A stretch of DNA of 26,099 nt from a virus: the IMG/VR virus record IMGVR_UViG_3300006190_000009, positions 1 to 26,099 of that record; one strand, written 5' to 3'. A model generated the notes under the pieces. It worked only from the letters and a program-made list of their open reading frames with translations, did no database searches and was not told where the DNA came from. The stretch's first letter is position 1, and each line of letters starts with the position of its first letter. Positions 8,201 through 24,664 of this stretch are shown one piece after another. A program made the translations under genes and the position numbers.

Positions 8201-11200
8201 TGGGAATCTAACAAATTAAATTATAAACAAGGAAATATGCTTGGGGATTCGGGCAGGGATTTACAAACGAGCGGCATGATAGCCAATCTTAAAATGCTCA
8301 GAAGCCTTACCGACCCCGGTGGCAATAACCCCGCTAATGCCTATGTTGAACCCTTAACCCAGCAACTTCAAAAGAATCATAGGTTATTCTTAGATAAAAT
8401 GCTCGGTGGGTCGTCGGAGCAAATCTTCAGCAACAAAAAACTAGAAGACATTTCAAGAACTCAAGCTAAAAATTTAATTAAACCTGACAGAGAGATAAAA
8501 GATCTGTTTTCTCAAAACGAGAGATTCTCATTTGATGGCAAAAACAACTTAAAGGTGTTTATTGCAAATTGGCAGGATGCTGGTAAAGAAGGGGGAGGGG
8601 GAACTGACCCTGTCACCGGGCTGCCCATTGGCGCGCAGGGCGGCGTCGGTGGTGATCGCGGCCCGGGCTTTGGTGGGGGCGGTAGCATCCCCGGGCAACC
8701 CAGAGCCAATTGGGCAGCGAGAAGGGGTTTGGGTAATCCAATGGCAGCTTTCTCAGCCGGGAGTGAACAGTCAAAGGAACTTCAAAGATTACAAAAACAA
8801 TATGCTGGAGGGGGAGCCGAAGGGGACAAAATCGCGCAAACTTTAAAAGGGCGCGAGCACGCCCGCGGCGTCGCGGCAGAAGCCTTTGCCAGAACCAGTG
8901 CCGCCCTTACTAAAACTATTGAGGGGTTGGCTCTTTTGAAACAAAACGAAGAAACTTCACTGAAAAATAAAGAAACAACAAGGGCAGCCCGCGAAGCTTT
9001 TGAAAAGAATGCCAGAGGAGGGACTTGGATCGGTGACAAGGACACTGGTCGCTGGGGGCGAACACCCGAGGAGGGCAAAGCACTGCCGGCGGGCCACAAA
9101 TACGGTACACCAATGTACGAGGAGGCCTTCAGAGCGGGAAAGCCCGATTTTCCGAGTAACAAGCGTGAGAACACTCGAGAGTATGATGCTATGTTGGCGA
9201 ATGAATCAACTTGGCAGCGCGCTGCGGATGAAGCCACCAAAAAGAGAGTAGCTGCCGAGAAGAGTATTGCGAATCTGGAAAGGGCGAAGGCCTCGCAGGA
9301 GAAGGCGATCACACAATATAATAAAGAAATCGGTCAGCTAAAAACCGAACTTCAGAACAATACAACTAGTCTAGGTAAGTTGACTACAGCGCTCAACCAG
9401 CTGGATAAGGGGGGCATGGAGAAGAGCAGGGAAAATGTAGGGTCGATGACGACGATGATCAGCAAGGCGTTTGGCGAGATGTCAAATCTTAAGGGTTTCG
9501 CAGGCACAAAAGAAGGTGACCAAATGATTGTTGATGGCTTTTATGACATGAACGAACTACTTACGAGGCTTACTGATGATGATGGTGTACTTTCTGCCGC
9601 AGATATGAAACAACTTAAAGACTCACTTGAAGAGATAAAGACTAAGGCACAGATGATATCCTTGGGTGAGACGTCCGCACCCTTTGGGGACGGTAATCCA
9701 CTGAACCCGGTTCAAGCGGGAAGAGCTCGGGACAAGGTCGAGACAATCGCTGCTCCAAGTCGTGCGGCTAATATGGAGAATATAGCGAAGGCTGTCCAAG
9801 ATTTTAGTGGGTCGAATAGATCTTTACCCGACAAAGAACGGGAAAAAGTTGAAAAATTCATGACAGAGCTGAGTGACTCATTGTTTAAAAATCAGAAAGG
9901 ACAAGATCTTGATTTAAAAGATATAGACCCTGCACTTATGGCAGAGAAGCTTAAGCAAGCTCGAAAAGAAATAATGCTCTTCCAAGATACCATTAATATG
10001 TCGTCATTCACGGCTGGCAGGAAAAATTTTGAAGAAGTACAAAATGGTATTTCGAAAACCATGGATGCGCTAGTCAATGATGCTAAGGGTAAAAAGACCG
10101 AGGTTGATTTAACCAAACAAATCGACCAATTGCTCAAACTTTCTGAGGCTAGGGATAAAGAGTCTGCGGCAATTAAGGGTAGTATCGATGCAAGAGACGT
10201 AATCCTTGAGACCTCCTCCTCGATGCAGGACCTAAGGTTACAGATGTCGAAATATGGTATTGAGGGTGAAGTGGCTACGAACGCGATGAGCAACTTGGGT
10301 ACTGTACTAAGGAGTGTCGCTACGGATGGAGAAATCGCGGGTGACGACATGACAAAGTTGGCTGAGGCGATGAGAAAAGCACAAGAGGCAGTGAAAAAAT
10401 CCAAACGCGAAAAAGGCTTTTTAGACCCAGATCAATTTAAAAGCGATATTACTAAATTTTTGCAAGAAGGCGTAGAAGACGGAACTAGGCAGGCGGGGGA
10501 AAGTTTAAAGGGCTATGTCGCAGCCTTAGGAGATGTGGGTAACGAGGCGGTACGCGCGATGAGGAGCAGCGAAGTAACTAAAAAACTTGGTTCGGCTTTA
10601 ATCGGTAGTCTTAATGCTGCCAACGCACAAGTCATAGAGTCACAAAAAGCAGCTGCCGTGGAATACTATAAAGTTACTGGGGACTTAGCCGCTGCTATTG
10701 AGAAAAATAACGAACTTGATCTATACAGAACAGAAATTGCGCAAAAAGTTTCCAACGGGATAATCACCCAAGCGACTGCTAACTTCCTACTTAGTGAGAA
10801 GACAAAAGAAGCGACACACGCAACAGCAAAACTAAATCGCGAATTAGGTATGCTGGGATCCTATGATCCGAAAAAACTAAAACAGGATGAAGTTGACCGA
10901 AACAATGCAAAAATGCTCAAAGGCGGCAGCACTTATGACAATGTACAGACGACACTGGACAACCTTAGTAATGATGACGTGTACAACCCCCTCAATATCT
11001 ATAAGGACGCTGGCCGAATGCGGGATAAGCGGGAGGGCGAAGTAAAGGGCGCGTTTGGCGCGAGTCTTAACACCAAACTTGGTGCAATGAACGCTGGTAT
11101 GGAGGCTGACAATACGGATATTGGTGCTCGGCGCGCAATGGGGATGGCACTGACTAAACAAAATCTTAATAAACTTGAAAACGACTCGATTGAATTAGAT

Positions 11201-13255
11201 AAAAAGAGGGTCGATATTCTTAATCAGCTAAAAGATGGGCAGATTAATGCCAATCAAGCTGAGATCAGAATGGCGAAAGCGCGTGCTCCAATGGAGCAAG
11301 AAAGACTTAATCTAGCACTCGCTGACGGAACCATCGCACAGGCGGAGTACGAGTCAGGCATGAGGGCGCTAGCTGAAACCATGATGGAGGGTGACATGAG
11401 CGCGGGGGATTTTAACAGCGCACTTAAAAGCACCCTTATGGCTCTAACTCATCTAGAAAAAAATGCGGCCCAAAAAGATTTTATCAAAATGATTGATCGG
11501 AATGGTAAGGCATTCAAGGATGGCGTAAAAGACGCTTTTGCTGCTGCCATTAATGGCACCATGACCTTCAGGGAGGCGATGGCCAAGGTAATGCAGGATA
11601 TAGCTGCTGATATGCTCAGCACCTCCATTAGTAGCCTCGTTAATACTGCTTTTAATGCTGTTGGAAAAGCTTTAATACCTCAACCCGGTGGTGCGGGTGC
11701 TGCCACAGGCGGTCATGTCGTAGGTGGCATACGGGGTGTCCAGACTTTCCAGAAGGGTGGTCTAGTGTCGGGCGGTAAGGGTGGTGTAGATGACATTCCC
11801 GCCAGATTGGGACGTGGAGAGTATGTCATAAAAGAATCATCTGCTCGCAAATATGGAACTAATTATCTAAACGATCTAAATGCAGGAAGAGTTAATAAAT
11901 TTGCAGCTGGTGGGTCGGCTGATTCTGCGCGGAGTAACCTTCAAAACACCTACGACTGGAATGACCCAAAGAAACCTACGGCGGGGTCGTTTAATGTTGA
12001 TTCTAGGCTGTCGGCCCTCGGACAGATGGATAGCAGCAATCCGCAAAATGCATATAAATTCTCTAGAGAAGCTACCCTTGATCAATACCTCAAAGACAAA
12101 GCCGCCGATGATGAAATGAAGAAAAATGCCATGATGGCATACAAGACCCAAAGAAGGAAGATCATTCAAAGCGCAGTTATGCAAATTGCAATGGTGGGCA
12201 TTCAGGCTGGAATGCAGTCAATGGGTTCCTCGCCCAAGGCGAAGAACCCGAAAACGGGCAAGCCACTCAAGTCGGGCGAGGTCCTAACGAAAGGCGGAAA
12301 AGTCATTAAACCCGGCAGTAGCGGTTGGGCACAGGCGATAAGCAGTGCGCCCGTCAGTTCGATTGGGGGTACGCCTGCGCAGATAGAAGTCCAGCAGTAC
12401 AAGGCACAAGGCGTGCGGGACATGCAGATGGCTAAGACTACAGGGTTTCCTGCTACGGCACCCGGCGGAGGCGTGTACGGGTCGGATAAAGTTGCCCGGG
12501 CTGATAGAGTAATGGAGCAGATGCAGGATCAAGCTATGCTTAAGCAATTCACAAAGGACAGAACTCCCAAACAAAACTTTCTACAACAATTGTTAGGTTT
12601 TCAACCGGGAGCGAATTATGGCAGCCCCTTGACGACACCATCGAAGAAAGCTGGGGGCACGGGCAAAAAGGGCGGCTTAGGCGATGTGAATATCTTGGGC
12701 GCAACCAGTAACTTAACGAAAGGTGACGGCGGTGGCGGAATTACGAGACCGAAGACAATGATCGATGCGTCAAGGCTGAAGTTATTTAGGCAGGATCACG
12801 ATACGATGCACGTGGCTGCTGGGGGACCTGCACACACAAGGGGCCGGGACACGGTTCCCGCCATGCTAACAGCCGGGGAGTGGGTGGTTCCCAAGGAAAC
12901 CGTAGACTTGTATGGTATGGGTTTCATGAACAAATTAAATAAAGGAGAAGTACAGCACTTTGCCGAGGGCGGCTACGTAGGTCCACGAGGCGGGGGTGAG
13001 ACACCTTCTTCTGGCGGCGGAAGCGCTTCCTCAGTTAATAATGACTTTACTATCAATGTTAATGTTACCAATGAGGGTGGCGGTAGTGACGACGGAAGGA
13101 CAGCACTCGGCGAAAAGGATCAAAATACACAGGGCGGATTAGAGGAAAACGAGCGCAATAAAGAGCTTGGCGTTAGAATTAAAGGCGCAGTGGTACAGGA
13201 GATTGTTTACCAAAAACGCCCCGGTGGTCTTCTCTACAGCGAAAAGAGAAGCTAA
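2249..13255 (+). CDS. Giant tail tape measure protein (TP901-type N-terminus)
   Basis: This 3668-aa protein would be the ruler that fixes tail length and is expelled or passes into the host envelope at infection. Residues ~95-295 match the TP901-type tape measure domain (helical, with QVLLNATG, FARQGLNVEQS, AQEKTARGG, ESLGVAV). Hydrophobic segments lie near 430-455, 1340-1393 and 1436-1462. GFxPNF motifs occur at 548, 560, 645, 976, 1208 and 1283 and bracket extra domains, one of them nuclease-like (E846, D874, D901-x-K903). Gly-rich linker ~2112-2153; long coiled coils near 2336-2388 and 2980-3040. Residues ~3085-3142 resemble the C-terminal lambda tape measure domain. Two copies of a GG...D.(I/V)PA.L..GE.V motif lie at 3170-3222 and 3525-3575. 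ATG 2249 has AAAAGGA at 2238-2244. Most tape measures are 700-2500 aa, so this is unusually long. Its stop overlaps that of the convergent J gene. Confidence 0.95.
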   Translation: MARNSATIDIGINVPASEMRKAEQQLQALFNKTQSFNKNPIVAKNFTQPLGRITGAANEFNKSLEASNARVIAFGASAGAIFAVQKAMSELVKTTIKVEQQLTNIQVLLNATGKDFERFSNGLFKAAKATGHSFYEVAESAEEFARQGLNVEQSLKRTTAAMTLAKLGGMDVKNATESLTAAINTFGKAAGNSTQIVNKMAQVDAKFAVSSGDLAEAIKRTGAAANSANVSFEELISIVTTAQEKTARGGAVIGNSFKTIFTRIQRPETLRQLESLGVAVRKTSGELLPAMKVLENYAKVYGSLAPSLRATSSEMLAGVFQVNVLKAVLPELANETGKYQKALMVANETTNEATQRMGLLTSTTEGMVNKTMVNLTKFATEVGALTVKPALDRILKMVNGFADLISPKNFFGLGETVGTAVYEGMGKIISGPGLALLGFVLVKIGAKLAVFVKDAAAGFMGMETASQKLASTQNIIQNILAQRPALINQATASEEGMVAVARVLAQKIKESRAEMEKLTLAAQKAAPAVLAMQGGAKRTGGKKPKAGGFIPSFNMGAASGFVPNFSQEVQEKRLAKAGGYQAGKIKEATIPGVGKVTYNGNEEIKKFPGLQQPGIMPPRTSSAGNNYRDSFKGVHGYDPYNSAGGFVPNFANLKLTSLGAGIMGKGSMSQSTITRKINEGKLDPSHVASGQGYSYGTQKNIKESKAGREPKNPRNIHTYNTQGAIGLLSYYGTPNKSDHAQLPIKKIPALSDLMKSNDLSNDSIKFTGLQISSLQSMPKKGDETSKKFSQQISDHMAGPMVSLTEQFLKHTGLNHKGRLKDKKGLVDSLKKSNAFLSPGTEGDIFENLARIATNTPGQLDELSEAGGSFKAPFDFEEGRGEKANSKFIKTFKFGSQLKKADAKRSATGEAKQSLINKAYTEGLLDDMGLGARFATELPGLGKNLKAGPGSSGARKMTQKQKLSTATRMQKAISALGFVPNFMAPRGNPWAEKQRAHLAKTLNKNKLAPGLRRWDDGERGGMKYIGGDEGGRMDYTSGKMHSRSSGLAGQEALQIQYNMSKQKGRGFQQFKELANVSQETGKPIYSSQLINQLWAGLPSQSPEKRKSELLGRMSPFEGMSKVAFPQLRHRMRPNMVTSGILSMPEVGPEKKFRSLKQLQGMVGSMPKEVVVDGLRRNKIEFESLISRPTNNTSARADTGLLSRKTKAGGFIPNFAFGGPLGEAINREDRAGVRRDQVRVGHDDRLNGGTGVYNTKEGSLGNAINMHLASGATMKSIQRQGKADGYIPNFAQKKQGGGDDMGMGMSMGMMMVGSQLSVMSDRLKETNEGVSTFSSSVLDLSASFAMYYPMIAMATQSYGGILGALSKLGTGISASIAGLAVWTKSVIASAKVSMGKSAFSGPLTKSGKPDMRFKANKGGGTKGLGARMGGGIARGGRAAYAAAAANPAVAIALAVAAVGIGVNKLMQGAYDAKGAAARKRVQEAAKKSAESFKNLNEHMSKASEATSAFGKALGKGDAAGVAAAKNDIIRSLNLAGIGDTMKRSGGVTVGKDKLNTKAEVISKIQDVNTSVEDIRELNAAIKSAASRFNQMAQGAGASATALDAFAQNQGMLYSKDTSAENMAKAAQGFASMLDGVGQKKAREMLKEFTNLKDSGKSLSDEYNISQDEAQAYNRKVVAQLSSLDGLSAEQKDLLESLKEMDQKVNLDEDDFMRLHMIINGKLLPILKRRATMEEGLIKEEDAFAKETSLLHDEIQKFKNNLKGLKNQITLKKSLTKLFEDQTLKMFDLGTKTLVDNLSKTASERTLIEFNAASEERRLRIKHANELNDLQVKKQEALMSDLETHLLSKVRGTEKLTPQKGGFMGKDFQNQINKKFGPAFFEAIRNADLSGADKAIADAIKMAKGPAGGAENRVVVANMKKHREALEDLTSATSREITVMRAKQKAEMDYAKAMKVAATAQLKLAQQISFAGGIGGAAGAPIKAFKDWESNKLNYKQGNMLGDSGRDLQTSGMIANLKMLRSLTDPGGNNPANAYVEPLTQQLQKNHRLFLDKMLGGSSEQIFSNKKLEDISRTQAKNLIKPDREIKDLFSQNERFSFDGKNNLKVFIANWQDAGKEGGGGTDPVTGLPIGAQGGVGGDRGPGFGGGGSIPGQPRANWAARRGLGNPMAAFSAGSEQSKELQRLQKQYAGGGAEGDKIAQTLKGREHARGVAAEAFARTSAALTKTIEGLALLKQNEETSLKNKETTRAAREAFEKNARGGTWIGDKDTGRWGRTPEEGKALPAGHKYGTPMYEEAFRAGKPDFPSNKRENTREYDAMLANESTWQRAADEATKKRVAAEKSIANLERAKASQEKAITQYNKEIGQLKTELQNNTTSLGKLTTALNQLDKGGMEKSRENVGSMTTMISKAFGEMSNLKGFAGTKEGDQMIVDGFYDMNELLTRLTDDDGVLSAADMKQLKDSLEEIKTKAQMISLGETSAPFGDGNPLNPVQAGRARDKVETIAAPSRAANMENIAKAVQDFSGSNRSLPDKEREKVEKFMTELSDSLFKNQKGQDLDLKDIDPALMAEKLKQARKEIMLFQDTINMSSFTAGRKNFEEVQNGISKTMDALVNDAKGKKTEVDLTKQIDQLLKLSEARDKESAAIKGSIDARDVILETSSSMQDLRLQMSKYGIEGEVATNAMSNLGTVLRSVATDGEIAGDDMTKLAEAMRKAQEAVKKSKREKGFLDPDQFKSDITKFLQEGVEDGTRQAGESLKGYVAALGDVGNEAVRAMRSSEVTKKLGSALIGSLNAANAQVIESQKAAAVEYYKVTGDLAAAIEKNNELDLYRTEIAQKVSNGIITQATANFLLSEKTKEATHATAKLNRELGMLGSYDPKKLKQDEVDRNNAKMLKGGSTYDNVQTTLDNLSNDDVYNPLNIYKDAGRMRDKREGEVKGAFGASLNTKLGAMNAGMEADNTDIGARRAMGMALTKQNLNKLENDSIELDKKRVDILNQLKDGQINANQAEIRMAKARAPMEQERLNLALADGTIAQAEYESGMRALAETMMEGDMSAGDFNSALKSTLMALTHLEKNAAQKDFIKMIDRNGKAFKDGVKDAFAAAINGTMTFREAMAKVMQDIAADMLSTSISSLVNTAFNAVGKALIPQPGGAGAATGGHVVGGIRGVQTFQKGGLVSGGKGGVDDIPARLGRGEYVIKESSARKYGTNYLNDLNAGRVNKFAAGGSADSARSNLQNTYDWNDPKKPTAGSFNVDSRLSALGQMDSSNPQNAYKFSREATLDQYLKDKAADDEMKKNAMMAYKTQRRKIIQSAVMQIAMVGIQAGMQSMGSSPKAKNPKTGKPLKSGEVLTKGGKVIKPGSSGWAQAISSAPVSSIGGTPAQIEVQQYKAQGVRDMQMAKTTGFPATAPGGGVYGSDKVARADRVMEQMQDQAMLKQFTKDRTPKQNFLQQLLGFQPGANYGSPLTTPSKKAGGTGKKGGLGDVNILGATSNLTKGDGGGGITRPKTMIDASRLKLFRQDHDTMHVAAGGPAHTRGRDTVPAMLTAGEWVVPKETVDLYGMGFMNKLNKGEVQHFAEGGYVGPRGGGETPSSGGGSASSVNNDFTINVNVTNEGGGSDDGRTALGEKDQNTQGGLEENERNKELGVRIKGAVVQEIVYQKRPGGLLYSEKRS
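3890..6115 (+). repeat. Dispersed GFxPNF motif series inside the tape measure protein
   Basis: Six short motifs are visible: GFIPSF at codon 548 (nt 3890), GFVPNF at 560 (3926), GFVPNF at 645 (4181), GFVPNF at 976 (5174), GFIPNF at 1208 (5870) and GYIPNF at 1283 (6095), the last two and that at 645 followed by A. They are preceded by small residues (AGG, SG, DG). From general knowledge, such motifs recur in very long tape measure proteins of marine and jumbo phages, often flanking inserted domains. They may act as processing or docking sites; this is inference. Confidence 0.85.
4202..5173 (+). other. Tape measure internal domain with PD-(D/E)XK nuclease-like signature
   Basis: Between the GFVPNF motifs at codons 645 and 976 lies a domain of about 320 residues unlike the helical rest of the protein. 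It contains GDIFENLARIA with E846, then PFDF with D874, then ADAKRS with D901-x-K903. The order E, D, D-x-K and the hydrophobic context match the active site of the PD-(D/E)XK nuclease fold. A helix-rich part with basic residues follows. No structure or profile search could be run, so this remains a motif-level proposal. Confidence 0.45.
11756..12973 (+). repeat. Two copies of the GG...D.xPAxL..GE.V motif in the tape measure C-terminus
   Basis: Copy 1 is codons 3170-3222 (nt 11756-11914): GG, then D-D-I-P-A-R-L, G-E-Y-V-I, YGTNYLNDLN, FAAGG. Copy 2 is codons 3525-3575 (nt 12821-12973): GG, then R-D-T-V-P-A-M-L, G-E-W-V-V-P, YGMGFMNKLN, FAEGG. The ~300 residues between them are Lys/Gly/Pro-rich. 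This motif is common near the C-terminus of phage tape measures, usually next to the baseplate or tip; the duplication is seen directly. Confidence 0.85.
13252..13255. other. Overlapping convergent stop codons of TMP and J
   Basis: The plus-strand tape measure gene stops with TAA at 13253-13255. The minus-strand J gene stops with TAG read from 13254 to 13252. The 3' ends therefore share four base pairs (CTAA on the plus strand), leaving no room for a terminator between the two transcription units. Confidence 0.95.
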
Positions 13256-16200
13256 TACCTTCTTCCATAATCAGCTTCAGCGCTGAAGTTAATAAATTCC
13301 ACATTAGTCCCTTCAAATTCTAGCTTAACCGTAAGGGTTGTGTCTCTATTAAATTGTTCAAGCGGAACGCCTTTAGAAAGTATATTAAATACTGGCAATA
13401 AATCTGTTGATCCATTCCATTTTGAATTTTTACAAAATACAAAGTTTTTATCCGAGGGCGGATTAGAAGCCCAGTTTTCAGCTTGATCTACCCTGATGTC
13501 ATTAACATAAACTTTCCAATTTTTGAGTTCACTTAATTCCTGCCATTTCTCATTTTGAGACTCAGCGTTAGTATACAAGGTCCTCTCCCCTTGGAGAGAT
13601 CCCTCTATCTTAAGGAAGTGCCATTGGCGTTGGGCTGGTAGGGTAAACGTGAGGGTTTGATTTCCCTGTTTAATAATCTTTCTTACTGTGTTTGTGTCGT
13701 CGAGTTTAACTTCACGAACAGAGCTTACAGATAACATTCTAGCCATATCAAAGCCTCTATTTTTGATTGGATTATTTTTTGTATTAGTACGATACGCGAT
13801 GTCTCTCTCTTGATCAAAGGTATCATAAAGGCTGTAAGCCATATAAGCCGAACCATCTAGTAAAAGATTCCCAGTAGGGGTAACTTCAATGGTCGGAGCA
13901 TAATCAAATTTTATTCTTTGAATGTCATGGCGCAAGTCATTTTGAAGAACACCCTGTACCCCAGTAACGTCAAAATACTGAGGGGAAACGTATAAAAATC
14001 CACCAGCTACATCCCTATTAAAACTCTGGGGGCTATTTTTTTCAAAAACCATTTTAACTTTATTATCTAATGTGATTTGCTGGGTAGTGCAAATATCATC
14101 ACTAGGAGCACAAACATCCCCGTCGCTTGATAGGTGGGCATGAACGGGGGGATTATTTAGCCTGACTATATCATACCCATATATGTTGGTATAATGAGAA
14201 TCTAATTTTGTATAAGTTTCAGTAATAAGATTCCCCGAACTGTCAGTATAGGGCTGTGCGCTTGGATCTAGGCTGTACCCAAATTTACCGCCCGCAGAGC
14301 TTTCACCATATTCATTATGAGCTTCTACTACGATGTCAAAAGTCCGCCTCCCAGAAGCATAAAATAAATTTCCTGTTAAATCATAAGTAAATGCAAATCC
14401 ACTTAAGTTTGTCGCCGCTCGGTCAGCGGACTTGTATCCTGTTATCTCATGGATAATGTTTGGATTCGGAATGGGAGTACCTTCAGAAGGCTCTCTAACC
14501 GTAAGTCTGTACGCATAGGAGCTTGGTACAAACCCGGACGCAGCTAGTGTCGATGTCCAAAGTATAGTTGGGCTACCTCCAGTAAATTCGATTCTTGGTT
14601 TTTTCTTTTTTTCAGCCGTTATAAGACTACCTTCATTGGTTGATAGTCCAAGGTTTTCTACCTCAACATCTTCAATAGGGTGAATCGTGGGAACGATTAT
14701 CCTCTCGGACCTAGAAGACAAGGAGTATTGATTCATGTTATTCACAGAAAATACTTTAAATAGACATGATCCTGATTGCTCAGGTCTGAATATTCCTTGC
14801 GCCTGAGCTAGGGCTGGAATTCTGGTGATTCTATGTTCATTATCAGGGATATATTGGGTACCTGAAGAGACTACTTTTGTAAGGGGGGTATTATCTATAA
14901 ACGCCCGTCCACTTAGTGATCCTCCGGTATACTGTGTCCACAGCACCGGGTAATTTCCAGTAAAGTCTGAGATGCTAAAGAAAGGAGAATTTTCTTTTGC
15001 AAATACCTGATAAGCGTCTAAACCATTTTTGCTGGTTGGGGCCCCAATAGAATATTTAACTTGTGCTGAATTTGGGGAAAATTGATCTATCTTAAGAGCG
15101 AGGCTCGTGGGTCCATCCGGAACTTTTAGTGTGGGCGAGTTATATAACCCAGCCTGCTCGAATAATAAATCATCTTCTATTCTATCATATTTTATGGGGT
15201 TATTTTCAACAGCCTTAATCGAGAATACTTGTTTCTCATCTTCTTTTACGTCTACTATTCGAAAAAGCTTCTCTTTAGTAGTAGATGCATCAAAAGAGCT
15301 TCCGAGGGCAAATTCTTTACCTGTTGGGTTAATTGTCCAAATCTGATTGTTACCTACAGTATAATCAGATCTGTTAATATTTTTTGTAGAGCCGTCAAAA
15401 CCGCCAGCTAGCCATGCTGGCCAATGAACTGCGGTGGCACCCCCTAATTTTATTGTGCTAAATTTTGGAGGAGCAGTAGTTTCTAAATCTAAACCCATAT
15501 CAATAAAGCTACCGCTAATTAAAAAATCCTGCACCTGACTACGCCTGATGTCCGGGGTGTCGTCGGAGTTCAGTCCGCTTACATTGTAACTATCATAATT
15601 CCATCCGGGGGTTATAAGGGATAACTTGTATACTTGATCATTATTAATGTATTCGGGGTCCAAAAAGGAATCTAACTGAATAGTTTCGGGTGTATTCGTA
15701 GTCGTGTCTGCGCCTGAAATAACTGTTGTTCGCCCTCCCCATCGGAATGGGTTTCGGTTATTATCAGATATGGATATGGTATCTCCCGGACGCAAATAAC
15801 TAGCCTCCACGCCAGCTTTAAAAGATACATTTTCTATTTCAAGATTATTTGTATAAACCAACCACTTACCCAGCCTAATAGCTTGACCACGAGAAGTGCA
15901 ACCAAATGCTGTTATTTCTTGTTCCCGAACTCCGTTAGCTCTAATACCTGCCAAATCTTCTACATATTCTATTGCGGGCTTATAAAAATTTGTTTTATCA
16001 TTATACCTTATAATGCCTACATTATATCTTTCTTTACGGCTCTTATTAGAGTAAGTAAAGTTTCCGTCTTGTGCGTTTGCATTTGTAAAAGTATAAATCG
16101 GATCTTTTTTAGAATCTTGAATTGCGTAAATTTGTCCTGCAGCGTAATAAAGAAGTCCCCTAAAAACACTTGCCATATCATTTATGACTTTAAATGCATC

Positions 16201-19200
16201 TTCTCGACTGGTAATTATAGTATTAAGGGTCAATCGCGGCTCCATGCCCCCCGCACCATCTGGGACAATAACATCACAATATTGTGCAATTTTATAAAGA
16301 GTCCACTTATCAAAACCATCAAGGGGTATATACCGACCCAACCCATATCGGTCATTGGTAATCATATCTAAAAAACACCAAGCCGGATTATCAGTCCAGT
16401 ATTTTTGGGTTTTCCATGTGCCATCCCATGGGCCTTGGCTTTCGTCGTATGTTTTTTTGATTGGATTATAATTACTCGGAACTCTTACCCGAAGAAGTCG
16501 AACATCTACAGACCTACTGGGAATGCTATTAAAATACGCTGCATTAAAGCGCTGCCTAATGACTGAGGAATTGGGATAGGCTGCCGCAGTATCATATTTT
16601 TCTACTAACACATCAACTGTTGTAGATTTTTTTATGTTCGTTACTGTTACTTCTGGCTCTGTTCTATAAATTTTTATTTCCCATCCATAGAAGTTATTTC
16701 TATCCGAAGCTGAGAAACTACTAATGACTTCTTTAAAATCTAAATCAAAAACCCACAGAAATGGTACATCTGCCCTTCCGGTAATTTGCTGATCATAGGC
16801 GTCCTTATAAGCTGAGGTACCATTGTGTATAAGTGGTCTAAATTTAACCACGATATTATTTATAGAGGCGTCAATCAAGTCGCCCGAGCTTTTAACGCTG
16901 TTATATAAGGCGTCAATTTTAAGGTGAACTTCTGCTCCCACACAATGCTTGTTTACAATTCTATATTTTTTTGCAAACATGTCGACGGAATAATTATCAC
17001 CTGTTGGATTTCCGCTTCCATCTACAGTAGGGCCCCTTAATCTTTCCTTAATTGCTTTGGCTTTAGTTAGGGGGAAACCCTTACTGCTTTCAAGTGTCAC
17101 TTTATCAAAGTATAGAGTTGAGTTTCCGTGTAGAAGCTCTACTCCGATCCAGCTTTCCATCGTACCCGGCGGGGCAGTGAAGGTATAAGACATGGCATTT
17201 TGGGATTCATCTACAGAAGACAACTTCTCTGCGATAGGGGTAAAAGTACTTGATTCAGCATAGGGACCACTACCTGAATCCAACCACGCAACAAATTTAA
17301 ACCCGGCATTGCCTTGGGATGTGTTTGTAGCCCTATAAGACCTGCACGAGATAGTATAATTCTCCCCACCCTTAAGCGGAACCTTTTGCACAAAAAATCT
17401 CTTTTTGATAAGGTGTTCAGTTTCTACAACGGGAGTATTGGCGACATGACCTCTGATATAATTTCCGCGATGGCTCGAAAATGACGTGCCATCAAGGTCA
17501 CCATAGTCGCCCGGAACCCATGTACTTTCATCTATACCGGGTCGATTTTTGTTTATGGTGTCATTCCATGGGTAGTGAGTCCCGTATGTAGGATAGGGTT
17601 TGCCACTCCCCCACTGAATCACGTGAACATTAAGGCCCCCCGATCTTTCAACTTCTATGGAATCCTCGGGACGAGTTACTTTTAACAGCTTACCTGTACC
17701 AATAAAATCTTTTTGTATTACTAGCTCCCCATCGTTCGCGACTGTGATATTTCCTATAAACTGGCTGGTATTTGGAGTAAAGTAAGGCTGACCGTTAGTC
17801 CCTTCACCGGGTCCATATTGCCTATTCATCCATGTAGCTCCGCTACTCCAATATCCGACCAAGCGAGCCGTGGAGGGAAGGAAGGTGGCACCGTCGGGAT
17901 ATTTGCAGAAGTCCCGCTGGATACTGGCGTTATTAATGTACCCCCCAAAGGGTCCTTCATTTAACACAGAGGTTTGACCAAATGAAAGCATAGTGGGCAT
18001 TGACGTTGTTGTTTTCTCTGTAGTGTCCTCGCCTTTTTGAACCCCGCCAATATAAAGTCGTTTCGTTCCTGACTGATTTACCATCGCGATGTGCGTCCAC
18101 TCATTTGCCGGCACAGCAGTATTTGACGTATAAATTTCCCCAAAACCCGAACCAGTAGTGTTCCACTGCCAATAAATCTTATTGGCATAATTAGTGATAG
18201 CCCAGCTGTGTCCAGTAGAACTATTCCAATTAGCCGTGCCGCCTCCGCAACTCATAAAGCATTCGGCGGTGCTGCCCAGCGCGTGATCTGGGCGCACCCA
18301 GAGCTCCACAGTCCAATCGTCGTTATTAAAATTTGCACCATCCTTTGCGGCGGTTGAGGAAAGAAATGTGCCAGCTGCTTTGTTGAAGAAAACGCTACTC
18401 TCCTGATTTCCCGCTTGGTTATTTACATCGGTTGAGTTTTCAACGGAGCCATTAGCTGTTATGGCGTTTCGATAAGATGACAGATCCGTAAACTCCGTGG
18501 TACCATCTTCCGCATCAGACTGCAAAGCAAACACCTGCCCCGGCCTACTGCTCGAGACCGTTGCTTGACCCACAGTGAGCAAGCTAAGTGCTACTGCATC
18601 GCTCGGGGGCGCGTAATAAAATTGTGTCTGGCTGGTATCTTGACCGCTGGGCTTGCCGCCGGCAAAATAATAATCTTGCCCAAAATTAACGGTCAACTTA
18701 ATGCTTGTTTCCGCGATTTTTATCGTGGGTATCCAAGTGGTGTCTCCTAAATCTGTGAATGCGGTAGTCCAACTTCCATTGTTAATCCTAAATTTGAAAG
18801 TTCCTGCGGTGCTATCAATCTCTACCCCAATAATATCGCCATTGCTCCATGTGGAGTAGCCCGCTGCAATCTCAGAACCATTACTATATTTGTACCCGTT
18901 TCCGCGAACCCATCTTGATGGACTCGCGTCGAGTTGTCTGCTAATCGGGCTTCCAACACCCATGACCCCGATGGCGGGCGGACTGGACCAGATACTGGCA
19001 GCGTCAATACACAGGACTTCAAAGTAGATTTTACCCTTACCCGGAGCGATGGTTTGGGTCGACCTCGCTGCACAGTGCCCACTTGCATCTGTAAAGGATA
19101 AATTGCCATCGCCCAACACGCCGCAACCTGCGAAGTCTGTGGAGCTCAATGTGGCATAATTCTCCTGAGGCGAATAACGAGGTACGTCACTCCAACGAAT

Positions 19201-21882
19201 TTCATCTATGTAGCCCTCAAAAAGGTAACGAGGTCGAGCGCCATTATAAGTCTGTGCGCCAATGGTGATCCGGTGTGATGCAGTCGGATAACCCCAATTA
19301 TCCCAAGACGAAGTGTGTCCAACCTGAACCCCGTCAAAGTAGATGTGGGCGCTGTTTCCTTTACCATTACTTACTACTGCAACGTGGTGCCAAGTGTTTA
19401 GATTAATGGTCACACCGCTCGCATGCAAGACTGGACCAGTACAATTCCCGCCCCATTGTATATAGTTACTCTCTGGACTGATACAAAGCCCACCATATTG
19501 TTGGCTGGAATTTCTGGATATCAAATACTGCAGGCCGGACTTGCTAGTGTTAAACCACATCTCAACTGTATATACGCCTACGCCAAGTTGTCCCGCAGTA
19601 GTGTCTATATAGAGCGATGACGCGAGTTCGCCGCCATCGTTCCATCCATCAAAATAAATCGAAGATGTCCCAAACTTTTTCTTAGTCGTTGAATTTACGG
19701 CGTTTCCAAATCTGCCTATGCTATAATTACCAGTTGAATCAGTGAACGTAGTGGAGCCATCCGTAGTGTTTGAATGGAGTAGTAGTTTGCAGTTGGTCGT
19801 GGATGTAAACGCCGCTGTTGGCACACTCGGACCCATAGCCGTAATCTTCCTCCAAACAGAGGTGTTCCCTGTTTCCACTGGAGCGATGGACTCGCCTCCC
19901 AGTATTCTTGCATTGAATATATATCCTTTAAAACTATCCATTATTACGTTCGGATGTGAACGGGCAATGCAAAAGCGAGTATCCTCATTGAGGGTTTCGT
20001 GCGAAGGGATGATTCCACGTGTGTCTACCTGTATTCCATCCACAAAAAGTCTACAATAACTACCATTATATATAACCTGAACATGATTCCAGCTTGCCGT
20101 TGAAATTGATCCTGAAAGCTGCTTGACAGATTCATCGGTAATATCTACGCACGACCAATAAATTTTAGTAGCGCCAGATTCGTGTTTCGTTGTTAGCATC
20201 CATGGGGCAGAAGTTCCATCGCCTCTCATTAGACCCGCAACAAACTGTTCATCCCCATTGGACATCGAAGCGGGATAAATCCACGTTTCAAATAACCACT
20301 CACGACTACCATTTGTGGTATAGTTGTAGTAGTTGGGGTTAAGAAATACCTCTGCATGCGGAGTTAAAGAATCCACCATTCGACTTGTATTTTGTAATGT
20401 ACCTTCGTTTGCAAGACCTTCGGTTCCATCAAAATATATGCTTGGTGTTGAGCCCCCACCGGGATCAGTAATCGTAGTGTCATACTGGGGAGTATTATTT
20501 TTTAGTAATTTAGCATTTACACAACTAAAGTCATAAAACGTGGCGTTTGCAGCTGTGTTGAGATCTTTTAAAATCTGGTTACTTTGTAATACAAACCTTT
20601 GATCGTTAACTAAGGTGCCTCGCAGCATAGTATTAATTTCTATAGAATCATCTTGAGGAATTATTGGTACTTCACCTTCAAAGCGCCAATCTTCCCCATC
20701 TATTAAAAATAGAGTACTATCATTGGGCTCAACTTTCCCCGGGGTAAAATTAGTTGCATACTTTGCCCTATTTGACATGCATATATTATCTAAAAATACA
20801 TTCCTTAAGGGGTTAGTTGAGCCGTCAGGATGCCTACCCAGAAAAAGGTCTGTGGGGCTAGAAAGTTTTATATTGGGATAATTCTTGCCACCGCCTGTCT
20901 GCTCAACACCGTTAATAAAAATTTTAACTGCTCTTTCACTGAGGCACACCGCAACGTGAGACCAAACCCCAAATTGCATTACATGACCTGTGTCAAGTGA
21001 TATGTTGTTGTTGATAAAGGTAACTTTAAAATAAAAATTACCATCATCATCTAGTGCCTCGTTACTAGGAACCATCATAAGTACCCACCCTCCCGGGTAA
21101 TTCGGATTTCCCTTGCCCGCTAACACTTGCGGCCCGTTTGAGTCTGACCCTTGAACCTGCGCTTCAAACGTGAACGCTTGTTTGTTTTGTGCTTCGATTA
21201 TCTCCTCAGGAGTATAATCTTCTTCCTCCGTAGCGACAAAGCCCCCTTGTCGCGGCCAAAAATTATAAAGGTCATCACCAAGCACCGGGTCACGTACTAC
21301 TAGTGCAGCACTTGGCGGCATTTTTACAGAGTACTCACCATATGCAGCGGAGCTCGACCTTTCCGGATACCCGGACCCCAGAGATAAAACAGCTTGTTTC
21401 TGACGATAGGTAGAAACCGAACGAGGATTGGGGTTAATAACTTTTGTAAGTTCACAGTTTTGATACTGTTCGGGATTTTGCTCAGTGTCGGGGCTGACAT
21501 TAATATTGAACGAAGCTGGGGAATTACCTTTCCAATAATCCACACCCGCCTCGTGCATGTCCCAGTCATTGAAGTATTGAGCGTTTCCAATCCCACCGTT
21601 TGGTTGACCTTTTGTAATAGCTACTTCTATGTTTTGAAAATTATAAAGACCCTGCTCATCCATGACAGGGGTGTCATTAAGATATAAAGAGGATAAGAAG
21701 TTTTTTTCGGGCTGGGCATTTACCGTATCCCAACCAGTTGCCCCCAGTGTTCCTACATAGTCGTACTCCTGCTTAACGGGTCCTTCAATGGGTCCTTCTG
21801 CTATTAAGTCAATAGTTTCTATATTAGAAATAGATTTTTTCTTAATGCCGTCTACTATAATTCCGGGTTCTGCATTAGCCAT
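13252..21882 (-). CDS. J: Tail tip / host specificity protein J-like, giant, with LamG and SPRY insertions
   Basis: This 2876-aa protein corresponds to lambda gpJ, the trimeric tail tip that recognises the host. Residues 24-95 match the lambda J start (IAEGPIEGP, LNDTPVMDEQG). Residues ~1640-2040 match the J core (VPSNYNP, DGTW, NPAWCFLDMITNDRYGLGR, YCDVIVPDGAGGMEPR, AFGCTSRGQA). Between these lies an insertion with LamG-like domains near 236-400, 480-668, 698-905 and 1117-1345, a SPRY domain near 915-1075 and a CBM4/9-like jelly roll near 1480-1600. Fibronectin III-like domains follow near 2256-2400 and 2404-2540. The last ~300 residues are unrecognised and may bind the receptor. Lambda J is 1132 aa. 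ATG 21882 has AAGGA upstream and is 29 nt from the I stop. It is the last gene of the M-L-K-I-J operon. Confidence 0.95.
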   Translation of the reverse strand: MANAEPGIIVDGIKKKSISNIETIDLIAEGPIEGPVKQEYDYVGTLGATGWDTVNAQPEKNFLSSLYLNDTPVMDEQGLYNFQNIEVAITKGQPNGGIGNAQYFNDWDMHEAGVDYWKGNSPASFNINVSPDTEQNPEQYQNCELTKVINPNPRSVSTYRQKQAVLSLGSGYPERSSSAAYGEYSVKMPPSAALVVRDPVLGDDLYNFWPRQGGFVATEEEDYTPEEIIEAQNKQAFTFEAQVQGSDSNGPQVLAGKGNPNYPGGWVLMMVPSNEALDDDGNFYFKVTFINNNISLDTGHVMQFGVWSHVAVCLSERAVKIFINGVEQTGGGKNYPNIKLSSPTDLFLGRHPDGSTNPLRNVFLDNICMSNRAKYATNFTPGKVEPNDSTLFLIDGEDWRFEGEVPIIPQDDSIEINTMLRGTLVNDQRFVLQSNQILKDLNTAANATFYDFSCVNAKLLKNNTPQYDTTITDPGGGSTPSIYFDGTEGLANEGTLQNTSRMVDSLTPHAEVFLNPNYYNYTTNGSREWLFETWIYPASMSNGDEQFVAGLMRGDGTSAPWMLTTKHESGATKIYWSCVDITDESVKQLSGSISTASWNHVQVIYNGSYCRLFVDGIQVDTRGIIPSHETLNEDTRFCIARSHPNVIMDSFKGYIFNARILGGESIAPVETGNTSVWRKITAMGPSVPTAAFTSTTNCKLLLHSNTTDGSTTFTDSTGNYSIGRFGNAVNSTTKKKFGTSSIYFDGWNDGGELASSLYIDTTAGQLGVGVYTVEMWFNTSKSGLQYLISRNSSQQYGGLCISPESNYIQWGGNCTGPVLHASGVTINLNTWHHVAVVSNGKGNSAHIYFDGVQVGHTSSWDNWGYPTASHRITIGAQTYNGARPRYLFEGYIDEIRWSDVPRYSPQENYATLSSTDFAGCGVLGDGNLSFTDASGHCAARSTQTIAPGKGKIYFEVLCIDAASIWSSPPAIGVMGVGSPISRQLDASPSRWVRGNGYKYSNGSEIAAGYSTWSNGDIIGVEIDSTAGTFKFRINNGSWTTAFTDLGDTTWIPTIKIAETSIKLTVNFGQDYYFAGGKPSGQDTSQTQFYYAPPSDAVALSLLTVGQATVSSSRPGQVFALQSDAEDGTTEFTDLSSYRNAITANGSVENSTDVNNQAGNQESSVFFNKAAGTFLSSTAAKDGANFNNDDWTVELWVRPDHALGSTAECFMSCGGGTANWNSSTGHSWAITNYANKIYWQWNTTGSGFGEIYTSNTAVPANEWTHIAMVNQSGTKRLYIGGVQKGEDTTEKTTTSMPTMLSFGQTSVLNEGPFGGYINNASIQRDFCKYPDGATFLPSTARLVGYWSSGATWMNRQYGPGEGTNGQPYFTPNTSQFIGNITVANDGELVIQKDFIGTGKLLKVTRPEDSIEVERSGGLNVHVIQWGSGKPYPTYGTHYPWNDTINKNRPGIDESTWVPGDYGDLDGTSFSSHRGNYIRGHVANTPVVETEHLIKKRFFVQKVPLKGGENYTISCRSYRATNTSQGNAGFKFVAWLDSGSGPYAESSTFTPIAEKLSSVDESQNAMSYTFTAPPGTMESWIGVELLHGNSTLYFDKVTLESSKGFPLTKAKAIKERLRGPTVDGSGNPTGDNYSVDMFAKKYRIVNKHCVGAEVHLKIDALYNSVKSSGDLIDASINNIVVKFRPLIHNGTSAYKDAYDQQITGRADVPFLWVFDLDFKEVISSFSASDRNNFYGWEIKIYRTEPEVTVTNIKKSTTVDVLVEKYDTAAAYPNSSVIRQRFNAAYFNSIPSRSVDVRLLRVRVPSNYNPIKKTYDESQGPWDGTWKTQKYWTDNPAWCFLDMITNDRYGLGRYIPLDGFDKWTLYKIAQYCDVIVPDGAGGMEPRLTLNTIITSREDAFKVINDMASVFRGLLYYAAGQIYAIQDSKKDPIYTFTNANAQDGNFTYSNKSRKERYNVGIIRYNDKTNFYKPAIEYVEDLAGIRANGVREQEITAFGCTSRGQAIRLGKWLVYTNNLEIENVSFKAGVEASYLRPGDTISISDNNRNPFRWGGRTTVISGADTTTNTPETIQLDSFLDPEYINNDQVYKLSLITPGWNYDSYNVSGLNSDDTPDIRRSQVQDFLISGSFIDMGLDLETTAPPKFSTIKLGGATAVHWPAWLAGGFDGSTKNINRSDYTVGNNQIWTINPTGKEFALGSSFDASTTKEKLFRIVDVKEDEKQVFSIKAVENNPIKYDRIEDDLLFEQAGLYNSPTLKVPDGPTSLALKIDQFSPNSAQVKYSIGAPTSKNGLDAYQVFAKENSPFFSISDFTGNYPVLWTQYTGGSLSGRAFIDNTPLTKVVSSGTQYIPDNEHRITRIPALAQAQGIFRPEQSGSCLFKVFSVNNMNQYSLSSRSERIIVPTIHPIEDVEVENLGLSTNEGSLITAEKKKKPRIEFTGGSPTILWTSTLAASGFVPSSYAYRLTVREPSEGTPIPNPNIIHEITGYKSADRAATNLSGFAFTYDLTGNLFYASGRRTFDIVVEAHNEYGESSAGGKFGYSLDPSAQPYTDSSGNLITETYTKLDSHYTNIYGYDIVRLNNPPVHAHLSSDGDVCAPSDDICTTQQITLDNKVKMVFEKNSPQSFNRDVAGGFLYVSPQYFDVTGVQGVLQNDLRHDIQRIKFDYAPTIEVTPTGNLLLDGSAYMAYSLYDTFDQERDIAYRTNTKNNPIKNRGFDMARMLSVSSVREVKLDDTNTVRKIIKQGNQTLTFTLPAQRQWHFLKIEGSLQGERTLYTNAESQNEKWQELSELKNWKVYVNDIRVDQAENWASNPPSDKNFVFCKNSKWNGSTDLLPVFNILSKGVPLEQFNRDTTLTVKLEFEGTNVEFINFSAEADYGRRY
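13275..13288. other. 14-bp perfect palindrome near the TMP/J junction
   Basis: CTTCAGCGCTGAAG is fully self-complementary and lies 20 bp beyond the tape measure stop, inside the last codons of J (F-S-A-E). Either transcript could fold it into a stem (CTTCA, loop GCGC, TGAAG). There is no T-run on either side, so it is not a typical intrinsic terminator. A role as a bidirectional RNA end or a protein site is only a possibility. Confidence 0.3.
17083..21177 (-). other. LamG-LamG-LamG-SPRY-LamG-CBM adhesin block inside J
   Basis: The block covers J residues about 236-1600. LamG-like modules show the typical pattern of small beta strands with W-T-V-E-(L/M)-W near the start (e.g. YTVEMWFNTS, WTVELWVRPD), W-x-H-V/I-A followed by a strand carrying D/N-G (e.g. 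IYFDGVQVG), and a final F-x-G-Y-I-D/N-x strand. The SPRY module has GKIYFEV, GDIIGVEID, FRINNG and VNFGQ. These modules bind sugars or proteins in other systems, so a role in cell-surface recognition is inferred. The DNA is more GC-rich than the J core; two sampled 60-base lines at 18241 and 18961 have 39 and 36 G/C. Confidence 0.8.
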
Positions 21883-23455: not shown

Positions 23456-24664
23456 TTACTGACGCTTAATTGCTGGAAAACCGCCAAAAGGAATTGCGGC
23501 GCCATATGGGCTTCCTTGTAGGGCAGTGTTGAGTTTCTTGTCCCACCTTAACTTACATGCCCCCAGATCTTTTGCACACACATCTGCTACCCAATAATCT
23601 TTATCAGGGGGTGGTGTGTTTTCGGGTACATCTGCGGACGAAACAAAATAATAATTTATTTTGTTATGGGTTACATAGACAGTGCTTTTTTTGGGATATT
23701 TAAGAGCCGGCTCCCACGGCACGGGGGTATTTGTTGTTTCGGGGGTGTATCCCTCTACAATGCTTGAAATAGTTTCATTATTTTCTGTAGCTATAGGAGG
23801 AGCGTTTGTTGGTATCATCGTCTTGTAAAACATCTGAAATGGCTCTGAAGTTCGTTGTGCCCTTACCATGCTGGAATACTCGTAAGTACACCCCTGTCCC
23901 CGGTACGTCCATGGACATCGGGTCACGTTAAAAATTCTTTGTGGAATTTGAAGCTCTTCAAAATTAATAAAAGAAGCTAATTCAAATTGGATAGATGATT
24001 TATCTTCGTGTGATTTTCTATCTATATAAAAAACATCCGGGGGGAAATAAGAGCCTTCATCTGGAGCAATATTCTTAGGAATATCTTCATATAGTCTTTT
24101 ATTTAGATCGGGAGTTCCGTCTGCTTTTAATTCATACCAATTTTTATAATCTAAAAACTTTGCAAAAGTTCTTATACGGTTTACCCGAGCGCCCACTAGA
24201 TCATTAAGATCTTTAAGAAGATGTTTAAAAATAGCAAATTGAGGTGGACTTTTTTCCGTGCTAACACTTAAGCTTAGCTTGGGGGTAGCGGCTACACCAT
24301 TAGAGTTCATTTCAAAGCCATCCGCTTGTATGGGTATAGCTTTATATAGGTTATCTTGGAACCAAATATTTCTTGAAATTAATTTTAAGTTATTATGAAA
24401 TCTAAATAAATTTATTTCGGGATTATGTATATTCACTTCTAGCGAGCCTCCCAGAAATACATTTAATGCATTAAATTCTTCTCGATCTATTAGTTTATCA
24501 GGACTAAGTATATCACTTAAATCTATTTCAAATAATTCTATTAAAGCAGTGGGCGATAAAGAGGTGGCTTCCGCCTGCAAGTTCTTCATGGCCGTTTGCG
24601 CCTGTGATTTTGAAATCACCGCGCCACCGCTATCATTTTTAGGATTAACAAATTCTTCAGCCAT
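23456..24664 (-). CDS. L: Tail tip protein L-like, iron-sulfur binding, with CBM5/12-like insertion
   Basis: From ATG 24664, four nt after the M stop, it is 402 aa; a TTG at 24688 could add 8 residues. The C-terminal half carries four cysteines in the lambda gpL pattern: C250-x8-C259 (CPWTYRGQGC) and C363-x6-C370 (CAKDLGAC), which bind a [4Fe-4S] cluster in lambda L. The protein ends in the family-typical IPFGGFP. Between the second and third cysteine there are 103 residues, against about 22 in lambda. This insert holds a CBM5/12-like module (W317, Y323, Y330, Y338-Y339-F340, P347, P351-353, Y357-W358). The N-terminal half corresponds to the conserved L beta domains (IELFEIDLSDI, VNRIRTFAKFLD). 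L binds the tip hub next to J in lambda. Lambda L is 232 aa. Confidence 0.92.
   Translation of the reverse strand: MAEEFVNPKNDSGGAVISKSQAQTAMKNLQAEATSLSPTALIELFEIDLSDILSPDKLIDREEFNALNVFLGGSLEVNIHNPEINLFRFHNNLKLISRNIWFQDNLYKAIPIQADGFEMNSNGVAATPKLSLSVSTEKSPPQFAIFKHLLKDLNDLVGARVNRIRTFAKFLDYKNWYELKADGTPDLNKRLYEDIPKNIAPDEGSYFPPDVFYIDRKSHEDKSSIQFELASFINFEELQIPQRIFNVTRCPWTYRGQGCTYEYSSMVRAQRTSEPFQMFYKTMIPTNAPPIATENNETISSIVEGYTPETTNTPVPWEPALKYPKKSTVYVTHNKINYYFVSSADVPENTPPPDKDYWVADVCAKDLGACKLRWDKKLNTALQGSPYGAAIPFGGFPAIKRQ

Follow-up and report, generated by a model that had tools for sequence, protein, structure and literature searches.

A CBM5/12-like module predicted in the iron-sulfur loop of a lambda-type tail-tip protein L

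Inserted domains in related tail-tip proteins

In phage lambda, the tail-tip protein gpL holds its cluster with Cys173, Cys182, Cys205 and Cys212, and the iron-sulfur domain lies at the outer face of the tip (PMC10721106). Upon receptor binding the 4Fe-4S domain, together with HDII, HDIII and HDII-ins1, undergoes a rigid-body rotation away from the axis (PMC11101478). The window analysed here, the whole 26,099-nucleotide stretch of viral DNA, encodes a gpL homolog with the fold and cysteine spacing of the lambda protein; lambda gpL has a loop of 22 residues between its cysteine pairs and no insert, whereas the loop of the window protein contains an additional domain.

A comparable split is found in two other gpL homologs, the RcGTA hub gp13 (Rcc01696) and the hub of roseophage R4C, in which, as in the window L, a four-cysteine iron-sulfur domain is interrupted by an inserted domain. 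In RcGTA the ion-binding domain consists of residues 143–167 and 250–263, with an oligosaccharide-binding domain (168–249) between the two parts (PMC7296036), and the R4C hub shows the same arrangement with its oligosaccharide-binding domain at 162–243 (PMC10276861). The inserted domain of RcGTA is said to resemble the insertion domain of LKA1 gp49 and the T4 hub, not CBM5/12, and is by this description set apart from the module reported here. The upper baseplate protein gp50 of JBD30 has the cysteine spacings of the window L (Cys147/156 and Cys238/245, x8 and x6), with 81 residues between the pairs (PMC11445458); the account of gp50 in that source describes no carbohydrate-binding domain at this place.

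Carbohydrate-binding modules are also known from other parts of the tail. The evolved Dits of lactococcal skunaviruses resemble the window L in carrying a CBM within a tail-tip protein, and CBM inserts in Dit restored adsorption (PMC10688798), but the carrier is a different protein, the inserts are BppA-like and the hosts are Gram-positive. The A-1(L) tail fibre (8kec) and the Milano baseplate (8fqc) contain a module of the same fold, but in fibre and baseplate proteins and not in an iron-sulfur loop. The split iron-sulfur design with an inserted domain was thus already known; a CBM5/12-like filling of the gpL loop was not found in print, and appears new with respect to the literature searched.

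The window L protein and its split iron-sulfur domain

The L gene and the parts of its product are located as follows.

23459..24664, minus strand: minor tail protein L (gpL homolog), 402 aa, with the ATG at 24664 and the stop codon at 23456-23458
23918..24664, minus strand: L core, residues 1-249, an HDI-like domain by alignment with lambda L and others
23888..23917, minus strand: first cysteine pair C250-x8-C259, predicted 4Fe-4S site, spaced as lambda Cys173/Cys182
23729..23887, minus strand: linker half of the insert (residues 260-312), containing an APP-A-T-N stretch found repeatedly within the clade (alignments A2 and A4)
23582..23728, minus strand: CBM5/12-like module, residues 313-361, with putative core tryptophans W317 and W358 (from the model, fold matches and conservation)
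23555..23578, minus strand: second cysteine pair C363-x6-C370, predicted 4Fe-4S site, spaced as lambda Cys205/Cys212

The window L matches the Pfam family PF05100 (Phage_tail_L) with an E-value of 1.2e-29 and 103.5 bits, against a cut-off of 25, as well as phrog_18 (E 4.9e-52), and is surrounded in the window by homologs of M, K, I and J. The last of these (13255-21882, minus strand; 2876 aa) carries a SPRY domain and four Laminin_G_3 stretches in front of its Phage-tail_3 domain, which makes it a heavily lectin-decorated tip protein.

The L protein contains exactly four cysteines, C250, C259, C363 and C370, which together form a predicted 4Fe-4S site. The span 23555-23917 runs exactly from C370 to C250 and leaves 103 residues between the pairs, while the x8 and x6 spacings are identical to those of lambda L; the counts thus bear out the initial annotation, which had reported lambda-like pairs enclosing a loop of 103 instead of about 22 residues. 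All four cysteines are retained in L001–L004, the close homologs (89–100% identical to the window L) in which their loss was looked for, and throughout the parsed module-bearing set, save where contigs end. In the linker half A288 is invariant and A292 nearly so (alignments A2 and A4).

Fold and ligand residues of the inserted module

An AlphaFold2 model of the whole L protein, based on a 39-row alignment, has a mean pLDDT of 66.8, with residues 300-360 among its best-modelled parts. Its best structural match is lambda gpL itself (8iyk_L, VIA Z 15.9); JBD30 (8rk3_O, Z 10.5), RcGTA (6tba, Z 10.3) and R4C (8gtc, Z 9.5) match as well, and the VIA rows mostly cover model residues 27-237. The cyanophage A-1(L) tail fibre 8kec matches only the module part of this model (50 residues, rmsd 1.7). 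Around the first cysteine pair, at residues 233-254 and 256-258, the pLDDT drops below 50, so that the placement of the module relative to the cluster lies outside the reach of the model.

The module modelled alone (58 residues, 30-row alignment) reaches a pLDDT of 85.8. At the top of its VIA list CBM5/12 domains of chitinases and chitin deacetylases are mixed with phage fibre, tail and baseplate proteins: 1wvv (Z 6.6, rmsd 1.7 over 45 residues), the A-1(L) fibre 8kec (Z 6.6), the Agrobacterium phage Milano baseplate 8fqc (Z 6.5), 4nyu (Z 6.3, rmsd 1.1 over 44 residues), SmChiB (Z 5.5) and the ChiA1 domain 1ed7 (Z 4.5), with 9rkv and 9cuy as further phage fibre or baseplate entries. The Z values are limited by the shortness of the module, and in VIA a Z below 8 can reflect a common arrangement. 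The RcGTA and R4C entries are absent from the module's VIA list, which does not exclude them. A Foldseek search of the PDB places SmChiB first with a probability of 0.99 but an E-value of 0.14, and gives no match at E 0.001 or better; against BFVD many phage tail proteins are found, the best at E 4.9e-3. Taken with the models, these matches indicate that the end of the insert, about 50 residues long, very probably adopts a CBM5/12-like fold. The structure prediction suggested in the initial annotation thus returned the proposed fold and not an unrelated one.

Family searches give a less direct picture. The window module alone has no Pfam match at E-values up to 10, and a direct family label is therefore impossible; the assignment depends on the fold together with the wider alignment. 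Of 30 modules, 7 match PF02839 (CBM_5_12), and in a larger set 13 of 91 do so (E up to 1; best E 4.2e-4), the window copy not among them; the profile check proposed earlier thus gave matches for some relatives and none for the window itself. SH3_2 is matched by 8 of the 91 with a similar best E-value (8.1e-4). SH3 is absent among the listed VIA and Foldseek fold matches of the module. Profile-profile comparison of the module with four known CBM5/12 sequences yields a probability of 57% (E 1.1e-4). In profile searches of the PDB the leading entry is All3316, a component of the contractile injection system of Anabaena (E 0.0092 and 0.033), and a chitin oligosaccharide deacetylase appears lower down. 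The CBM5/12 domains of ChiA1, SmChiB and Streptomyces griseus ChiC share the predicted fold and the core aromatics with the module, but differ from it in the surface tryptophan discussed below and in formal family membership: none of 16 whole records reaches the PF02839 gathering cut-off, which leaves the module formally outside this family.

The core of the ChiA1 domain is formed by Trp656, Tyr662, Tyr670, Tyr675 and Trp696, and the surface residue Trp687 has the major role in ligand binding (PMC3701571), with His681, Thr682, Pro689 and Pro693 named alongside it (PMC2265269). In 90 aligned modules (ChiA1 numbers), the core positions are largely kept: position 656 is aromatic in 86 (W 70, Y 10, F 6), 662 in all 90 (Y 89, F 1) and 675 in 88 (Y 74, F 14), and 696 is tryptophan in 88, while 670 is mostly I, L or V. 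W317 and W358, which lie where the initial annotation had put them when counted from the ATG at 24664, align with the buried core residues Trp656 and Trp696. On this alignment their spacing is evidence for the fold core and not for sugar binding.

The ligand position 687 is tryptophan in none of the 90 modules (Y 7, F 7) and is occupied by a non-aromatic residue in the window. Among 146 parsed non-redundant modules a tryptophan occurs anywhere in the ligand loop only once, and a His-Thr/Ser-like stretch followed by an aromatic residue occurs in 15, by eye all similar to L031, a relative that keeps an H-T-S...F loop; the window module has neither. Judged from these residues, the ChiA1-type chitin site is lost in the window's lineage, and a ligand, if it is a sugar, would therefore be held differently. 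Two other positions are aromatic only here: 669 (Y or F in 80 of the 90; T in ChiA1) and 676 (Y in 86 of the 90; K in ChiA1). Both are located between core positions. In a sheet arranged like that of ChiA1 these side chains would lie exposed, and they may provide an alternative binding face or a packing face. Of the potential sugar-binding unit that had been proposed from aromatic spacing, the CBM5/12-like fold is upheld by the VIA and Foldseek matches and the core residues, while the aromatics thought to bind sugar turn out to be core tryptophans. With the ligand tryptophan gone, phage proteins annotated as CBM-like do not necessarily bind chitin.

Spread, possible role and gene neighbourhood

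A first sample of 185 loci gave 153 non-redundant L ORFs, of which 144 could be parsed. The loop between the cysteine pairs has 20-22 residues in 48 of these and 89-359 residues in the other 96, and 90 of the long loops contain the module. The six remaining long loops have other inserts (L006 with L071 and L086; L045 and L049; L088); those of L006, from Synechococcus phage S-CBS4, and of the viral contigs L071 and L086 are Ala-rich and helix-like at the end. Among the nine unparsed proteins, three stop before the iron-sulfur part (the L-like proteins L007, L110 and L111, from Prochlorococcus phage MED4-184 and Maricaulis contigs), three are cut by contig ends (L027, L171 and L177), two have other spacings (L011 and L108) and one, L107, has a lectin-like insert with the second cysteine pair not in frame. 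In L107 (1388-2611) low-complexity letters follow, as they would after a frameshift.

The loop is not restricted to a single type of insert. In L042 the module is preceded by an F5/8 type C domain (E 9.7e-7, over the cut-off), and L107 contains a B-lectin-like stretch (E 0.022, below the cut-off). An extra domain precedes the CBM-like module in L043, L173 and L183 as well as in L042, with loops of 258-359 residues; in the first three it has no F5/8 type C-like Pfam match. These cases show the iron-sulfur loop of gpL to be a site at which phages insert domains of different kinds; throughout a large uncultured clade the CBM5/12-like domain has become fixed there.

The scans with alignments A1 and A4 were ranked against module-bearing L proteins, which favours module carriers, and were for this reason repeated with the core-only alignments A5 and A6. 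One of the two A5 patterns spans the first cysteine pair, so that conservation of this pair is there partly imposed; the A6 patterns do not include it. With the core-only queries the module is present in 105 of 107 non-redundant relatives, many of them on contigs already sampled. Of the other two, L246 continues with a different sequence and reaches a stop codon close to where the contig ends, and L260 breaks off at the first cysteine pair; no clear loss of the module is seen among these 107.

When mapped onto a quick tree built from 143 L cores, the module label requires two changes, against a mean of 43.6 for shuffled labels, with none of 500 shuffles as low. The single stray row is L046, which lies on a long branch, as do L044, L008 and L158, so that a second gain in L046 is no more than a possibility. 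Pairwise dN/dS among the window, L002, L003 and L004 is 0.13-0.48 for the module and 0.065-0.098 for residues 1-249; the module is under purifying selection, weaker than that on the core. In 50,697 records of cultured phages, at least 80% of the window L is covered in none of 561 matched records and of L034 in none of 452. For L046 two of 645 reach this coverage, both Rhizobium phages, whose matches (708 and 699 bases) would, by their lengths, be too short to hold the insert. Genome contigs yielded 14 loci, four of them with the module (L098-L101, in two metagenome-assembled genomes); erroneous binning of viral contigs could account for these four.

With modest confidence, we incline to the reading that the insert makes weak, avid contacts with glycans of the host surface or with another ligand on it. 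A CBM5/12-fold domain would have entered an insert-tolerant loop of the gpL 4Fe-4S domain, once or twice, in an ancestor from which a large clade of uncultured phages inherited it. By homology with lambda it would face outwards from the tail tip beside the cluster, in three copies per tip. In a lambda-like loop the module would be exposed and would move along with the 4Fe-4S domain. This exposed moving loop, the Dit CBMs that restore adsorption, the oligosaccharide-binding domains in the same loop of RcGTA and R4C and the Laminin_G_3 and SPRY domains of J are grounds for assigning the module an accessory role in surface contact; sugar binding is plausible. The fold matches, the PF02839 and profile-profile hits, the kept core residues, the retention of the module in relatives and its purifying selection are counted for this reading as well. 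Counted against adhesion are the absent Trp687, the lack of a Pfam match for the window module, the SH3_2 hits at a similar E-value, the weak Foldseek E-values, the poor model at the first cysteine pair and the finding that the CBM on the A-1(L) neck fibre failed to bind its host (PMC10966104).

Alternatively, the module may have a purely structural role and no sugar ligand: as a compact plug packed against L or J, it would stabilize the tip or the cluster region. The missing ligand tryptophan, the aromatics at 669 and 676 as possible packing faces and the lack of clear losses among the 107 relatives, which would not be expected for a dispensable adhesion module, all agree with such a plug. 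However, the module evolves faster than the core, lambda and the 48 short-loop L proteins of the sample manage without an insert, and the homologous loop domain of RcGTA is described as oligosaccharide-binding (PMC7296036); we consider this possible, but less probable than surface contact. Docking of another phage protein, such as a side fibre or accessory adhesin, instead of the host is unlikely. Exposed conserved aromatics could serve such a contact, and some of the CBM5/12-like folds that phages carry in their fibres and baseplates (8kec, 8fqc, 9rkv and 9cuy) may join parts, but no gene for such a partner was recognized in the window, and the different domains at the same site in L042 and L107 point to ligands and not to one partner.

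The initial annotation had further proposed that sugar binding is coupled to a redox-sensitive cluster and thereby to tip opening. The lambda 4Fe-4S domain swings as a rigid body when the tip opens (PMC11101478), so that a ligand bound to the insert could exert a mechanical bias on opening, and a purely mechanical coupling between module and opening is possible. For a redox role no support was found, nor any evidence of a redox change during opening; what the cluster does is described as still to be characterised (PMC10721106), and the trigger in lambda comes from J and LamB (PMC11101478). A redox-linked mechanism is therefore very unlikely. It is also quite unlikely that the 4Fe-4S domain of L acts as a moving lectin arm, with surface binding by the three modules favouring or locking the open tip at the membrane. 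The exposed iron-sulfur domain that lambda-type tips keep may serve as a platform for surface-contact modules.

The surroundings of the tail-tip genes show some further features. The tape measure gene (PF10145, 3668 aa; 2249-13255, plus strand) is encoded on the other strand from M-L-K-I-J (25199 to 13252, minus strand) and converges with J, the two ends overlapping by 4 bases. The lambda record has M, L, K, I and J on one strand; H lies beside them. Since tail length amounts to about 0.15 nm per tape-measure residue, the tail would be very long. Two plus-strand ORFs of 338 and 335 aa (138-2210) precede the tape measure gene and have almost no family match: the 335-aa ORF has none, and the 338-aa ORF matches phrog_2115 (E 8.3e-4) and, in a low-complexity stretch, Extensin_1. 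On the other side, a family 2 glycosyltransferase gene (PF00535; 25190-26047, plus strand) directly adjoins the tail-tip genes on the opposite strand.
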